Source of the DNA: Candidatus Nanopelagicus limnes
Lineage (GTDB): Bacteria > Actinomycetota > Actinomycetes > Nanopelagicales > Nanopelagicaceae
DNA length: 64,000 nt
NCBI RefSeq assembly: GCF_002287885.2
Contig: NZ_CP016768.2
Coordinates: forward strand, 682,001-746,000
Direction: 5' to 3'
Positions 56,800-63,350 of the stretch are shown here, in pieces (the stretch's first letter is position 1; each line of letters begins with the position of its first letter). The translations under genes and the position numbers were made by a program. Under the pieces are notes generated by a model. The model was not told the DNA's origin, did not search any database, and saw nothing but the letters and a program-made list of their open reading frames with translations.

Positions 56800-57201
56800 T
56801 TAGTGTGCAGTATTTGAGGGGCGCTCGTATTGTAAAACTAAGCCAAGAACTGAAATCAATAAACTTCCGACTCCAATTAGTACTAGCCACCATCCGATAA
56901 TCAGACCTAATCCAAGTGTGCAAGCTGAAAGTGCTACTGGAAGTGGCCACCATGAATGGGGTGAATAAAACCCTAATTCACCAGCAGAATCTGCGATCTC
57001 TCCTTGCAGATTATCCTCTGGTAACACGTTTCCTAATCGGCGGGCTGTAAACCAAAGATAAAAACCAATAATTAAAGCTAAGCCACCGCTAAGTGCAATT
57101 GCAGTAACTCCTACTGGCTCACCACCTAGCTGCCAATAAATCACAGTCATGATTGCATAAAAGATTGATAAACCAATAAAGAGCAACCAACTGGTTTTCA
57201 T
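56800..57201 (-). CDS. ctaF: Cytochrome c oxidase subunit IV, actinobacterial type
   Basis: Small membrane subunit of 133 residues with four helices. GLSIFYAIMTVIYW and GLALIIGFYLWFTARRLG form the first half; SPHSWWPLPVALSACTLGLGLIIGWWL forms the second. These match the actinobacterial CtaF family, which stabilises the oxidase. The start overlaps the ctaD stop (TAATG). In other actinobacteria ctaF usually follows ctaC-ctaD, as here. Confidence 0.88.
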   Translation of the reverse strand: MKTSWLLFIGLSIFYAIMTVIYWQLGGEPVGVTAIALSGGLALIIGFYLWFTARRLGNVLPEDNLQGEIADSAGELGFYSPHSWWPLPVALSACTLGLGLIIGWWLVLIGVGSLLISVLGLVLQYERPSNTAH

Positions 57202-58862
57202 TAGTGATTTTCTTTCTGAGCCATGTGTGGATAGTGAAGATCAAATGCCGGACGCTCAGATCGAATTCTAGGAATAGATGTGAAGTTATGTCGTGGTGGT
57301 GGACAAGAAGTTACCCATTCAAGGGATGAGCCATACCCCCAAGGATCATTACTAGTTACCTTTGGTGAAGTTCTAGATTTCCATACCGCCATAAAGAATG
57401 GAATCATTGAAAGTGCTAGCAGGCCAGAACCAACAGTTGAAACCATATTCATAAAGGTAAATCCATCAGAGGCTAAGTAATCTGCATATCTACGTGGGAA
57501 TCCCTTAATGCCCAACCAATGTTGAATTAAGAATGTTAAGTGGAAGCCGAAGAATAAAGTCCAGAAATGAATCTTTCCAAGGGTTTCATCTAACATCTTG
57601 CCAGTCATCTTTGGCCACCAGAAGTAAAACCCAGCAAACATTGAAAACACCACTGTGCCAAACAAAACGTAGTGGAAGTGTGCAACTACGAAGTAGGAGG
57701 CAGAAACTGCAAAATCAAGTGGTGGGCTAGCCAAGATAATTCCAGTTAAGCCACCGAAAAGGAATGTAATCAAAAAGCCCATCACAAACAACATTGGTGT
57801 TTCAAATGTAACAGAGCCGCGCCACATGGTTCCGATCCAATTAAAGAACTTAACGCCAGTTGGTACGCCAATTAAAAATGTCATAAAGGAGAAGAAGGGC
57901 AGTAAGACCTGACCGCTTGCATACATATGGTGAGCCCAAACCGCAACAGATAATGCTGCGATTGCAATCGTTGCTGCAATTAATCCCTTGTAACCAAAGA
58001 TTGGTTTACGGCTAAATACCGGCAAAATTTCTGTTGCGATTCCAAAGAATGGCAGCGCCAAGATATAAACCTCTGGGTGGCCAAAGAACCAGAAAAGATG
58101 TTGCCACAACATCGCACCACCATTTGCTGGATCAAAAATATGAGAACCAAATAATCGATCAGATTCAAGAGCTAGAAAAGCTGCTGCAAGAGGTGGGAAT
58201 GCAATTAAAACTAATATCGAAGTAAGCAGTACGTTCCAAGAAAAGATCGACATTCTAAACATCGTCATACCTGGGGCTCGCATGGTCAAAATAGTGGTTA
58301 CAAAGTTAACGCCGCCAAGGATTGTGCCAAGACCACCAATTGCAAGTCCTACCAACCAAAGATCAGCGCCAATTCCAGGTGAGTACTGTGCATTAGATAA
58401 TGGCGCGTAAGCAGTCCAACCAAATGATGCTGCGCCCCCTGGTGTAATGAATCCAATGAATGCCATGGTGCCACCAAATAAATACAACCAATAAGAGAGC
58501 ATGTTTAATCTTGGGAAGGCAACATCTGCTGCGCCAATTTGCAAAGGCATAATTACATTTGCAAAACCAACAAATAATGGGGTCGCAAACATCAACAACA
58601 TGATGGTTCCGTGCATTGTGAAGATTTGGTTGTACTGCTCGTTACTTAAAAATTGCATTCCTGGACGGGCAAGCTCGCCTCGAAGGAGCAGGGCTAAAAG
58701 TCCGCCTATTAAAAACCATGCAAAAGATGTAATCAAATAAAGGTAGCCGATTGTCTTGTGATCTGTTGAGGTTAACCACTTAACTAATAATCTGCCCTTC
58801 GAAGTTGGCGCGGGCGCTGAAGGCGAAGATGAAATTACTGGTCGTTGGGCGTAAGTGGTCAT
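57201..58862 (-). CDS. ctaD: Cytochrome c oxidase subunit I
   Basis: Catalytic subunit of the aa3 oxidase; 553 residues with twelve helices. The CuB and haem ligands lie in [28 protein letters not shown] and [18 protein letters not shown]; the low-spin haem ligand is in [19 protein letters not shown]. The proton-channel residues of an A-type oxidase (GHPEVYI) are present. It overlaps the ctaC stop by 4 bases (ATGA). Confidence 0.97.
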
Positions 58863-59626
58863 GCGGTTGCTGCTTTCTCTTCGGCGACTAGATCATCAAG
58901 ATATTTTTGATACTCACTTGGTGTTACAACTTTTACCGTAAATAGCATCTGAGCGTGGTTTCGTCCGCAAAGAATGTTGCATCTTCCAGGGTATGTACCT
59001 AACTTGTTAGCAGTGAACTCAAGTTGATTGGTTACTCCTGGCAGATTTTGCATTTGGATCATAAAAGCTGGGATCCAAAAACCATGGACCACATCATTTG
59101 CATCCAAGGTAAATCTAACCTTCTCCCCCTGCGGCAGAACTAAGGTCGGCGGTTGCGCTGGAGTACCTGTAACAATGGCGCTCTTAAAGTCGCCAGCATC
59201 CTTGTACTTAAACTGCCATGACCACTGAAATCCAACCACATCAATGAAGTGTGAAACTTGCGCGTCTGGAGAAATCTTCACAATCTTTGATTCTCGTTGG
59301 ACTGTGAAATAGAAAAGAACTGCAACGATGATGAAAGGAATTACGGTGTATGCAACCTCGACTGGAATGTTGTACTGAGTTTGATTTGGAAAGCTTTCAT
59401 CTTTTTTACGATGGAAAATTGCTGGCCATAAAATTAAAATTAGAGTGAATACGCCAACTACACCTGCTGCAATCCAGGCGCCTTGCCAAAGAGATAATGA
59501 AGCATCATTAACGCTTGTAATTCCCTCTTCAAACCCAAGTCCAGGCACATCTTCTTTCGCGCAACCTGCCAATAATGGGCTTAATGCCAGCAAAGGAATC
59601 AGAGATTTTCGGTAAGGCATACGCAT
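58859..59626 (-). CDS. ctaC: Cytochrome c oxidase subunit II (lipoprotein)
   Basis: CuA-bearing subunit; 255 residues from the ATG used here. A short lipoprotein signal ends [12 protein letters not shown], so Cys near residue 22 is probably lipid-modified. Two membrane helices and a cupredoxin domain follow, with CuA ligands in [17 protein letters not shown]. The longest open frame begins 10 codons upstream with a TTG, but TATCCT stands 7 bases before this ATG, which favours the shorter form. It heads the ctaC-ctaD-ctaF-SRPBCC-putA run. Confidence 0.94.
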
Positions 59627-59633
59627 AGGCTTA

Positions 59634-59639
59634 AGGATA
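59634..59639 (-). promoter_or_regulatory. -10 box of the ctaCDF-putA operon (leaderless)
   Basis: TATCCT, 7 bases, then the ctaC ATG inside the longest frame. It sets the start. Confidence 0.5.
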
Positions 59640-59685
59640 ACCTTCTGCCATAGCAATGTCGCATGCAGGCAGTTGGGGGTAGAAG

Positions 59686-60738
59686 GTGGTTCGCATCACA
59701 GCCGATTTTCAGCAGGAAAGAGTGCTACACCCTGCAGCAATGGCCTTGTTAAATCAGTTCTTTTCTAAAGGATGGGCTGACCCAAATAAGTTAAACAACA
59801 ATTCAAGGCAAACAGCAATTTTGCTCCAACAGGTTCGAGAAAAATTTGCTGAGCTGCTAAAAGTTCGCCCCGATGAGTTGGAATTTTTAGGTGAGAGTGA
59901 TCTGGGTTTTCAATTAGGAATTTCTGGATTGTTAAAAGCTGAAAGTGAATTATTTTATTCAAGTATTGATCGCCAACGTGTTTTTGCTGTTGCATCTAAT
60001 GAAGAAAACAAAGGTAGGCAGGTTACTTGTCTACCAGTTGATAACAATGGCCAGATAGGTGCTTTTTCAGCAACAGCTAAGGATGTAGTTGTTTGGCAAG
60101 TGGCCAATGGTGAAAGTGGAAATATTCAAACAAAGCCTGCTACTGACGGCGCGATATTTGCTGACTGCACTGCAAGTGGTATCGATTTACTACCTACTTT
60201 TGATTATCAAACCGCGCTATTTGATAGTGCTAGCTGGCAAGGACCTGCTGGCTTTGGCATATTAGTTATTAAACAGGCAAAAGATTGGCGAAATCCTCTG
60301 CCACATAATGACCACACCAGAGTGCCTGGTGGTTTTTCAATTCCACTTGCGATCGCAAGCTCAGTTGCTTTAGAAGCTTATTTAGCAGATAGTGATATCA
60401 GGGCTAATTTAAAAGAGCAGATAATTAACTTTATTAAATCTGAAATTTCTGATGTAGATATTGCTTCTTCCCTTAATGGATTATCAAAGTTTTTATCATT
60501 TTCCGTCTCTGGCGTAGAAGCTGATCGCTTATTACTAAGCCTTGAAGATTTAGGATTCGCCGTGGACTCTGGTTCGGCATGTAAGTCAGCAGATATGCAG
60601 CCAAGTCATGTGTTGGCAGCCATGGGCAGACCAATCGCTGGAAATATCCGATTAACGCTTCATAAAGATATTACCGAGCAAATGGTGAGAGAGTTTTGCC
60701 AATCATTAAAGAGTTGTGTTGAAAAATTGCGGAAGTAA
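59686..60738 (+). CDS. Degenerate cysteine-desulfurase-like protein (class V aminotransferase fold)
   Basis: A 350-residue protein aligning with NifS/IscS over its full length but lacking key PLP residues. The SGHK Schiff-base Lys is Trp184 in DSASWQGPAG; the TEH segment is SSID (92-95); NNEIG is NGESG (141-145). The Asp of the VDATQ motif survives (D160, ADCTAS), and the persulfide loop is intact as SGSACKSADMQPSHVLAAMG with Cys299. PLP chemistry therefore looks impossible, while the sulfur-carrying Cys is kept. The likely start is a GTG after a GGGGG tract. It sits beside ctaC and the ErpA and nadA genes, both linked to Fe-S clusters. Confidence 0.75.
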   Translation: MVRITADFQQERVLHPAAMALLNQFFSKGWADPNKLNNNSRQTAILLQQVREKFAELLKVRPDELEFLGESDLGFQLGISGLLKAESELFYSSIDRQRVFAVASNEENKGRQVTCLPVDNNGQIGAFSATAKDVVVWQVANGESGNIQTKPATDGAIFADCTASGIDLLPTFDYQTALFDSASWQGPAGFGILVIKQAKDWRNPLPHNDHTRVPGGFSIPLAIASSVALEAYLADSDIRANLKEQIINFIKSEISDVDIASSLNGLSKFLSFSVSGVEADRLLLSLEDLGFAVDSGSACKSADMQPSHVLAAMGRPIAGNIRLTLHKDITEQMVREFCQSLKSCVEKLRK

Positions 60739-61728
60739 CTAACCAGCTAATCGCACATTTAGATGAGGCCTAACCTCATCAGCTGCAGCCTTTCCATAAG
60801 CAATTTCAAATCTACTTAGGAATTCATCCTTAGTGAATCGATACTCCTGTGTGCCAGTTGTCTCTATACAGTAGGTAGCGAGCAATGAGCCAAGTTGGCC
60901 ACATCTTTCATGACCTAATCCCCAAGAAAGCCCGGCGATAAATCCAGATCTGAAATTATCTCCAACGCCAGTTGGATCCAACTTCTCTTTTTCTTTTGGC
61001 ACTCCCACATAAATTGTTTCCTTGCCATGCTCTTCTATCTGCGCACCTTTTGAACCAAGTGTTACAACACGAACCTGCACACGATCAAATAATTGGCGGT
61101 CAGTCCAGCCAGTTTTTTGAATTGCTAGTGCTAACTCATACTCATTTAAGAACAAATATTTAGCACCTTCAATTAACTGCGCAATCTCCTTGCCATCCAT
61201 TCTTGCCATTTGCTGTGATGGATCTGCAGCAACTGGAATCTTTAAAGCTCTCGCCATCTCTGAGTAGCGCATCATTGCTTCAGGATCATCTGGTGAAATA
61301 ACTAGGAGATCAAATTTTCCAGTCTTTGCCATTATTGGTTCTAACTCAATATTTCGCGCTTCACTCATTGCCCCTGGAAAAAATGATGCAATTTGATTTA
61401 ACTCAGTATCAGTAGTCACCATAAATGTTGCGGTGTGAAGTTTGTCTGATACTAAAACATGTGAGGTATCAACGCCATGGCGCTTTAGCCAAGCTTCATA
61501 ATCAACCCAGTCACGTCCAACCGCTGCAATTAGAACTGGATCTAAACCAAGGGCGCCCATTCCAAAAGAAATATTTGCACCACACCCACCACGTCTGATT
61601 TCAAGAGTATCAACTAAGAATGAGAGTGAAACTTTGGCTAATGAGCCAGCCACAAGTGAATCGGTGAACTTGCCACCAAAACTCATGATGTGGTCGCCAC
61701 CGACTGAGCCGGCAACTGCCACCTTCAT
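60739..61728 (-). CDS. PfkB-family carbohydrate/nucleoside kinase
   Basis: Ribokinase-fold kinase of 329 residues. The C-terminal catalytic motif DPTGVGDNFRSGFIAGL carries the base Asp, and the N-terminal RRGGCGANISFGMGALG binds substrate. Actinobacteria place a close relative near nadA and hesB that is often annotated as adenosine kinase; sugar kinase is the other choice. Its stop abuts the stop of the convergent desulfurase-like gene with no gap. TAAATA 6 bases before the ATG is a weaker version of the leaderless promoter pattern. Confidence 0.82.
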   Translation of the reverse strand: MKVAVAGSVGGDHIMSFGGKFTDSLVAGSLAKVSLSFLVDTLEIRRGGCGANISFGMGALGLDPVLIAAVGRDWVDYEAWLKRHGVDTSHVLVSDKLHTATFMVTTDTELNQIASFFPGAMSEARNIELEPIMAKTGKFDLLVISPDDPEAMMRYSEMARALKIPVAADPSQQMARMDGKEIAQLIEGAKYLFLNEYELALAIQKTGWTDRQLFDRVQVRVVTLGSKGAQIEEHGKETIYVGVPKEKEKLDPTGVGDNFRSGFIAGLSWGLGHERCGQLGSLLATYCIETTGTQEYRFTKDEFLSRFEIAYGKAAADEVRPHLNVRLAG

Positions 61729-61747: not shown

Positions 61748-62116
61748 TTAGTTAAATGAATCGCCGCAAGCACAAGAGCCTTGGGCATTTGGATTATCAA
61801 TTGTGAAGCCTTGCTTCTCAATTGTGTCTACAAAATCAATTGTTGCACCCATTAAATATGGCGTACTCATTTTGTCAGTTACAACCTTAACTTTTTCGGC
61901 ACCAAACTCAGTAATGGTGTCACCATCAAGGGCTCGATCATCAAAATAAAGTTGGTAGCGAAGTCCAGAGCAACCACCAGGTTGAACTGCAACGCGAAGA
62001 CTTAAATCATCTCGGCCTTCTTGTTTTAGCAGTGATGAAACCTTTTGTGCTGCAACATCAGATAGTGCAATGCCAGCAGATGTTGTCGTTGTTGTTGTCT
62101 CTGTGCTCATACTCAC
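61748..62116 (-). CDS. erpA: HesB/IscA/ErpA-type iron-sulfur carrier
   Basis: A-type Fe-S carrier of 122 residues that hands clusters to client proteins. The three conserved cysteines are in QPGGCSGLRYQLYF and the C-terminal GSCACGDSF. The N-terminal threonine run (TETTTTTTSAG) is unusual. The longest frame starts at a GTG; an ATG two codons on is equally possible, with a GGAGAG ribosome site 9 bases before it. It lies divergent from nadA, whose product needs a [4Fe-4S] cluster. Confidence 0.87.
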   Translation of the reverse strand: MSMSTETTTTTTSAGIALSDVAAQKVSSLLKQEGRDDLSLRVAVQPGGCSGLRYQLYFDDRALDGDTITEFGAEKVKVVTDKMSTPYLMGATIDFVDTIEKQGFTIDNPNAQGSCACGDSFN

Positions 62117-62207: not shown

Positions 62208-63350
62208 ATGGGAACAAGTGATCTGCTGCTACTTGGCAGTGAATCTGATCTAAATAGCGAGCGGGGCGTCTCATGCGATGGCCAACTGCCTGCTGCAAGT
62301 GATCCGCAATTAGTAGATCGAGCCCAAGTGGCCCGAAAAGCTTTAGGCGCTAAAGCGATGGTGCTGGGCCATCATTACCAGCGAGATGAAGTAATTGCTT
62401 TTGCTGATATTAGAGGTGATTCATTTAAATTAGCGCAAGCAGCAGCTGAAAACTCTGCGGCTGAATTTATTTTCTTCTGTGGTGTTCACTTTATGGCAGA
62501 AAGCGCCGATATTTTAACTACCAAAAATCAAAAAGTTATTTTGCCTGATCTTGCTGCCGGCTGTTCCATGGCAGATATGGCAACTGCATCTCAAGTGGCT
62601 GATTGCTGGCAGGTTTTAGAAAAACTAGGTGTGGCAAAGAAAACTATTCCTATTACTTATATGAACTCATCAGCTGCAATTAAAGCCTTCACCGGCAAAA
62701 ATCATGGAGCGGTATGCACCTCTTCAAATGCTGCCAGAGCGATGAAGTGGGCATTTGAAAAGGGTGAAAAAATATTGTTTTTGCCAGATCAACATTTAGG
62801 AAGAAACACCGCTGTTTTATCTTTAGGTCTCACACTTGCCGATTGCGTTATCTACAACCCATGGAAACCAAATGGTGGCCTAACTGATGATGCGATCAAG
62901 AATGCGAAGGTAATTCTTTGGCGGGGTCACTGCTCAGTACATGGCAGATTTACCGTTGGAAATATTGAAGATGTTCGAGTGAAGTTGCCCGGCGTTAAGG
63001 TATTAGTTCATCCGGAGTGCCAACATGATGTGGTTTCAAATGCTGATGTGGTTGGTAGTACGGAGATGATAATCAAAACAGTTTCCCAATCCCCGGCTGG
63101 CGCTAAATGGGCGATTGGAACTGAATTAAATTTGGTCCAGCGCCTTGCCAATGAGAATCCCGATAAGCAGATAGTTTTCTTAGATAAAGCTGTGTGTTAT
63201 TGCTCCACAATGAATCGAATTGACCTACCCCACCTTGTTTGGGCGATGGAATCTTTAGTTAGTGGTCGGTTAATCAACCAAATCAAGGTTGAAGATGAGG
63301 TGGCAAAGTATGCCAAAGTTGCATTAGACCAAATGTTGGCCCTACCTTAA
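62208..63350 (+). CDS. nadA: Quinolinate synthase
   Basis: [4Fe-4S] enzyme that condenses iminoaspartate with dihydroxyacetone phosphate to quinolinate, the start of de novo NAD synthesis; 380 residues. VLGHHYQRDEVIAFADIRGDS is the N-terminal signature; cluster Cys residues are in LAAGCSMADM, HPECQHDV and CYCSTMNRIDLPHL. The 50-residue N-terminal extension before the core is low in conservation. nadB and nadC are not in the window. Confidence 0.95.
   Translation: MGTSDLLLLGSESDLNSERGVSCDGQLPAASDPQLVDRAQVARKALGAKAMVLGHHYQRDEVIAFADIRGDSFKLAQAAAENSAAEFIFFCGVHFMAESADILTTKNQKVILPDLAAGCSMADMATASQVADCWQVLEKLGVAKKTIPITYMNSSAAIKAFTGKNHGAVCTSSNAARAMKWAFEKGEKILFLPDQHLGRNTAVLSLGLTLADCVIYNPWKPNGGLTDDAIKNAKVILWRGHCSVHGRFTVGNIEDVRVKLPGVKVLVHPECQHDVVSNADVVGSTEMIIKTVSQSPAGAKWAIGTELNLVQRLANENPDKQIVFLDKAVCYCSTMNRIDLPHLVWAMESLVSGRLINQIKVEDEVAKYAKVALDQMLALP
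63343..63348 (+). promoter_or_regulatory. -10 box of the DUF3043 gene, inside nadA
   Basis: TACCTT, 6 bases, then the DUF3043 ATG. It lies in the last codons of nadA and touches its stop. Confidence 0.4.

Follow-up and report, generated by a model that had tools for sequence, protein, structure and literature searches.

A lysine-less cysteine desulfurase homologue at the ctaC-erpA locus of Candidatus Nanopelagicus limnes and other Actinomycetes

Lysine-less IscS proteins in which the cysteine is retained are already known from archaea. The IscS of A. fulgidus, the closest solved lysine-less homologue of the protein described here, is reported to be without desulfurase activity, its cysteine being a ligand of the IscU cluster (PMC7585200). 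In E. coli IscS the mutants K206A, H104Q and Q183E have zero desulfurase activity, and K206A retains some PLP (PMC9978102). In the open-access literature searched we found no description of the actinobacterial lysine-less family, nor of a loss recurring in bacteria at one fixed locus, of its fixation in the Nanopelagicales or of the lysine-less form fused to TusA, all of which are reported below.

The gene, its locus and the predicted fold

The window, i.e. the whole stretch of DNA analysed, comprises 64,000 nucleotides of Candidatus Nanopelagicus limnes (contig NZ_CP016768.2, positions 682,001 to 746,000 of the forward strand). The source, whose genome is a single contig of 1.24 Mb, is one of the streamlined freshwater actinobacteria (acI / Nanopelagicales). 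The ORF encoding the 350 amino acid protein was confirmed with its GTG start (Table 1); the protein is shortened, at 350 against about 375 amino acids. A promoter scan 5' of the gene gave no signal above chance. Pfam places the protein in PF00266 (Aminotran_5, class-V aminotransferase) with 34 bits, the NifS/IscS-type desulfurase models of NCBIfam match it with scores far under their equivalog cut-offs, and a sequence search of the PDB matched cysteine desulfurases and their relatives only. An earlier note on this DNA had called the gene a cysteine desulfurase homologue, and the Pfam assignment, the NifS/IscS models and the IscS structures all bear this out.

The AlphaFold2 model has a mean pLDDT of 91.9, and Foldseek matches it in the PDB to A. 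fulgidus IscS, E. coli IscS and human NFS1 with TM values of about 0.88 (0.88-0.90 for the latter two); as modelled, with confidence, the protein is an IscS fold. The lowest block means of pLDDT (72 and 68) coincide with the loop around Cys299 (residues 291-310), which is probably mobile, as the low values would fit.

Table 1. Features of the ctaC-erpA locus, in coordinates of the window
Feature	Position	Strand	Basis or remark
ctaD, cytochrome c oxidase subunit I	57201..58862	-	conserved neighbour
ctaC, cytochrome c oxidase subunit II	58859..59656	-	divergent neighbour; COX2 match and synteny
Lysine-less class-I-type cysteine desulfurase homologue, 350 aa	59686..60738	+	GTG start; intact in nearly all relatives
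Residues 69-75 GESDLGF, site of the PLP-phosphate S-G-T motif	59890..59910	+	Thr76 equivalent is Asp72
Residues 95-97 DRQ, site of the V-E-H motif	59968..59976	+	PLP-stacking His104 equivalent is Arg96
Residues 141-145 NGESG, N-x-E-x-G core kept	60106..60120	+	N141, E143 and G145 in 79/79 lysine-less rows
Asp160, equivalent of the Asp touching the PLP pyridine nitrogen, kept	60163..60165	+	
Ala182-Ser183-Trp184	60229..60237	+	His205-Lys206 changed to Ala-Ser; Trp184 ancestral flank
Residues 295-313 SGSAC-KSADMQ-PSHVLAAM, persulfide loop with Cys299	60568..60624	+	conservation and predicted mobility
Arg322 in N-I-R, kept	60649..60651	+	77/79 lysine-less rows
PfkB-family kinase	60739..61728	-	convergent neighbour; PF00294 and synteny
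ErpA-like A-type Fe-S carrier, three Cys retained	61748..62116	-	PF01521 and synteny
nadA, quinolinate synthase ([4Fe-4S] enzyme)	62208..63350	+	PF02445 and synteny

The gene order is conserved across the Actinomycetes, with ctaF-ctaD-ctaC on one side of the gene and pfkB-erpA followed by nadA on the other, and it is common to the source genus and to distant families of the class. Since this order is fixed across the class, its position marks the gene as an orthologue rather than a stray copy. In trees the protein groups with the ctaC-linked sequences and apart from the housekeeping IscS (L002/L042) with 100% support. The location beside erpA and nadA, pointed out in the earlier note, recurs in nearly all relatives. 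With ctaCD and pfkB in the neighbourhood as well, the tie to ErpA and NadA is a positional one. No iscU is adjacent at the locus, where the neighbours are ctaC, pfkB, erpA and nadA. Two metagenome bins carry two ctaC-linked copies each (L032 and L038 in G035, L011 and L057 in G017), probably because two strains were binned together.

Other desulfurases are encoded elsewhere in the source genome. The earlier note had asked for a second intact desulfurase, and this search was positive: a suf cluster contains an intact SufS (H-K, R-T-G-H-H-C) with SufU next in order, and IscS, likewise intact, adjoins an MnmA-like gene. An IscS with H-K and S-A-C is likewise found in each of the 22 further lysine-less genomes checked. 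From the intact SufS-SufU and IscS it follows that the cell has other persulfide sources. SufU beside SufS is the only NifU_N-domain match of the source genome. Neither TusA nor SufE was found there, and both were dropped as partners in this organism. The genome also encodes a class-V aminotransferase-like protein in which the lysine is present and the S-G-S-A-C loop absent (L003, C1:859751-860863), adjoining a gene which, from its ORF, is predicted to be proline-racemase-like.

The PLP site and the Cys299 loop

Residue conservation was determined on a set of orthologues non-redundant at 80% identity, comprising 104 rows, of which 79 are lysine-less and 25 lysine-bearing. Alignment with the syntenic lysine-bearing orthologues and with the solved IscS proteins places Ser183 in the column of the Schiff-base lysine. 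The earlier note was right that the lysine is absent and off by one residue in naming Trp184 as its replacement: lysine-bearing syntenic orthologues read S-A-H-K-W-G-G-P where the 350 amino acid protein reads D-S-A-S-W-Q-G-P, so that the tryptophan is the ancestral neighbour of the lysine. In the 79 lysine-less rows the column is occupied by Ser, Ala, Thr, Ile, Asn, Asp, Gly or Met.

The loss extends to most of the cofactor site. The column of Thr76 holds Thr in 24 of 25 lysine-bearing orthologues; that of His104 holds His in all 25 of them and Arg or Lys in 63 of 63 Nanopelagicales. Three further PLP contacts have changed from Gln183 to Ala163, from Ser203 to Asp180 and from His205 to Ala182. 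Thr76, His104 and His205 are all absent in 67 of the 79 lysine-less forms, and the mean conservation of the six lost contact columns falls from 0.90 in lysine-bearing to 0.50 in lysine-less rows. Of the two motifs given as altered in the earlier note, TEH has indeed become I-D-R, with the stacking histidine gone, while the change of NNEIG to NGESG is superficial: the Asn, Glu and Gly of the core do not vary, and the lysine-bearing orthologues have N-H-E-V-G at this position. Asp160 is kept in 63 of 63 Nanopelagicales and in 14 of 16 other lysine-less rows. Arg322 is kept as well, and from SufS we take it to be the likely equivalent of the arginine binding the substrate carboxylate. Because residues that contact PLP or substrate in active enzymes are kept in Asp160, Arg322 and the Asn core, a ligand may still bind.

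Relocation of the Schiff-base lysine was considered by conservation, not by distance, and rejected: only K35 is conserved family-wide, and most lysine-bearing orthologues have Arg at that position. Lys35 (59788-59790 of the window) is conserved in 94% of the Nanopelagicales rows and lies within a stretch matching the N-P-x-S loop of IscS; it might sit near the pocket.

The SGSAC motif is intact and so is the PSHVLAAMG loop after it, as had been described from the sequence. Cys299 is a cysteine in all 104 non-redundant orthologues, the lysine-bearing ones included. Seventeen columns are conserved in at least 97% of the lysine-less rows, and eight of them fall within the 19 columns of the Cys loop (p=3e-7). 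The mean conservation of the loop is 0.95 in lysine-bearing and 0.98 in lysine-less rows. A copper site formed by Cys299, His308 and Met313, for assembly of Cu_A beside ctaC, was considered and dropped: the active relatives have the same residues in their conserved loop, and nothing points to copper.

Eight pairs within the genus gave pairwise dN/dS values of 0.08-0.20, and the reading frame is open, without internal stops, in the matched homologues. The gene is retained in streamlined genomes of 1.2 Mb, and lysine-less forms occur also in unrelated genomes of 2-4 Mb. The gene is under purifying selection, and since the pattern is present in all Nanopelagicales homologues read, neither chance nor sequencing error nor decay explains it; classification as a pseudogene is contradicted by the dN/dS values and by the uninterrupted frames. 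Apparent frame shifts in the gene at loci L031/L084 and L122 are each on single metagenome-assembled contigs and are probably assembly errors.

Distribution of the lysine-less form

The lysine is absent from all Nanopelagicales homologues read. In the class-wide sample, lysine-less forms were found at the same locus in other families as well (L043, L051, L139-L144, L146-L148, L151-L153, L171, L172 and L175). Of the 297 genomes sampled in the class, 101 contained a DNA pattern coding for HKWGGP; the sample included 28 genomes of the source's own family, and the pattern was absent from every one of these.

The number of changes was estimated on two trees. The protein's own tree, from which the active-site columns had been removed, needs six changes (5-7 across bootstraps) and does not reject a single lysine-less clade (AU p=0.135). 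The tree of ctaD and ctaC, a proxy for organismal descent which assumes vertical descent at the locus and is usable as such because the synteny is fixed, needs seven (7-7 across bootstraps), six of them forced by well-supported branches, and rejects a single lysine-less clade (p=0.0009). The changes are taken to be losses, since it is implausible that a complete PLP site was regained. On the ctaD and ctaC tree we read that the lysine was lost independently at least 6-7 times, and that Cys299 was kept each time.

Some loci look like intermediates. In L144 the lysine is replaced by Met and the histidines are retained, and in L145, L157, L158 and L162 the lysine is retained and the adjacent His is changed to Ala or Arg. 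Fusions to TusA occur among lysine-bearing orthologues (L055 and L157), and the 7-kb locus L153 of family f37 encodes a lysine-less orthologue with a C-terminal TusA domain (CPxP motif, Pfam 47.8 bits), which makes it a natural test case of a sulfur relay without PLP. The genes of ten lake metagenome records (L062, L074, L075, L099, L101, L108-L110, L113 and L114) fall among the Nanopelagicales homologues; the taxonomy in the titles of these ten records (Bifidobacterium breve, Streptomyces griseus, Streptomycetaceae) looks wrong.

Proposed function and relation to known systems

The protein is altered at all three of the sites Lys206, His104 and Gln183 of E. coli IscS and, because mutation of each of these sites abolishes activity there, an active desulfurase is very unlikely. 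That it is a desulfurase pseudoenzyme, as proposed before, agrees with its sequence, in which the lysine, both histidines and the phosphate cup are gone and the Cys loop is kept; on these grounds the protein is very probably not a working PLP desulfurase. Our main reading, to which we give a probability of a little over one half, is that a dead, PLP-free desulfurase of the IscS/NifS type has been kept for a mobile Cys299 loop serving as persulfide relay or as cluster ligand. The ancestor would have been an active desulfurase, fused to TusA in some lineages, whose catalytic half was dropped in the streamlined and several other lineages, as we propose because another desulfurase supplies the persulfide. 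Intact SufS with SufU, or IscS, would load sulfur onto Cys299; alternatively, Cys299 would be a ligand for a nascent cluster. The pseudoenzyme would then hand sulfur or cluster to another Fe-S maturation protein; the A-type carrier ErpA, encoded close by, is the most plausible recipient and would serve NadA and other targets. The fixed erpA/nadA neighbourhood and the TusA-fused L153 suggest the handling of sulfur or clusters. More tentatively, the Actinobacteria may repeatedly, at least 6-7 times, have turned the ctaC-linked desulfurase into a PLP-free protein acting purely as persulfide carrier or cluster ligand; this would be a recurring path by which an enzyme becomes a sulfur-relay pseudoenzyme, and it is fixed throughout the abundant freshwater order Nanopelagicales.

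Retention of the Cys loop alone cannot choose between relay and ligand, since its conservation is just as high among the active relatives. A strict ligand role, in which Cys299 completes a [2Fe-2S] or [4Fe-4S] cluster on SufU or ErpA and never carries persulfide, would follow the manner in which A. fulgidus IscS reportedly works and would suit the presence of ErpA beside the gene in nearly all loci. However, the gene is not beside a U-type scaffold, SufU sitting with SufS elsewhere, and the fusion of a lysine-less form to TusA, a persulfide carrier, points to relay; we consider the strict ligand role unlikely and favour the relay. It is less likely still that PLP, PMP or a similar ligand is held non-covalently for a residual or different reaction. 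The near-invariance of Asp160, Asn141 and Arg322 among lysine-less forms speaks for such binding, as does the PLP kept by E. coli IscS K206A, but the phosphate-cup Thr, the equivalents of Ser203 and His205, the stacking His and Gln183 are lost together with the lysine, which is also the catalytic base, K206A being inactive (PMC9978102).

The persulfide relay or ligand function that we prefer has also to be weighed against explanations in which the cysteine plays no part. A regulatory or structural pseudoenzyme with an incidental cysteine might tune IscS or SufS or stabilise a partner; both intact enzymes are present as possible targets, and regulation of active relatives is a common task of pseudoenzymes. 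An idle cysteine would not be expected to persist without exception, together with its loop, through at least 6-7 lineages as Cys299 has done, and we regard this explanation as improbable, slightly more so than non-covalent PLP binding. Decay of a functionless gene in a streamlined genome would account for the lost catalytic residues and the shorter protein, yet is extremely improbable in the face of the low dN/dS, the open frames and the retention in small as well as in larger unrelated genomes.

The locus provides a natural experiment which splits the two halves of a desulfurase, the cofactor chemistry having been dropped repeatedly and the sulfur-handling Cys loop never. If the proposed function is confirmed, the Cys loop alone would have a selectable function, a role known from only one or two archaeal proteins would extend to bacteria, and a highly abundant group of freshwater bacteria would have an unrecognised component of Fe-S or sulfur trafficking. 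The lysine-less genes of the Nanopelagicales probably carry annotations as active desulfurases, so that counts of desulfurases based on annotation would be overestimates in Actinobacteria.

The overall fold and the position of the S-G-S-A-C loop are common to the 350 amino acid protein, E. coli IscS and human NFS1. The latter two have Lys206, His104, Gln183, Thr76, Ser203 and His205 or their equivalents, whereas the protein has none of the six. A. fulgidus IscS (IscS2; PDB 4eb5, 4eb7 and 4hvk; D199K mutant 4r5f) resembles it in combining the IscS fold and the Cys loop with a natural replacement of the lysine, by Asp, and IscS1 of Methanosarcina acetivorans is, according to its authors, also a lysine-less IscS with the Cys loop. 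The A. fulgidus protein is archaeal, is about 22% identical in structural alignment and keeps the S-G-A-T and V-E-H motifs, both of which are lost here; it was crystallised with IscU, with whose gene its own is paired, whereas the gene described here has no adjacent IscU. As iscU is not adjacent and PLP motifs kept there are lost here, we do not claim membership of the A. fulgidus-type group, and we infer that the lysine was lost in A. fulgidus separately from the actinobacterial losses. Closest by locus and tree are the ctaC-linked desulfurases of other Actinomycetes, orthologues with the same Cys loop which are sometimes fused to TusA. Their lysine-bearing members, about 33-37% identical to the 350 amino acid protein, differ in having a complete PLP site (S-G-T, V-E-H, D-A-A-Q, S-A-H-K-W) and, judged by these motifs, should be active enzymes. 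The SufS of the source genome belongs to the same superfamily and is intact; unlike the protein described here it is encoded in the suf cluster and, with SufU, is the likely supplier of sulfur.
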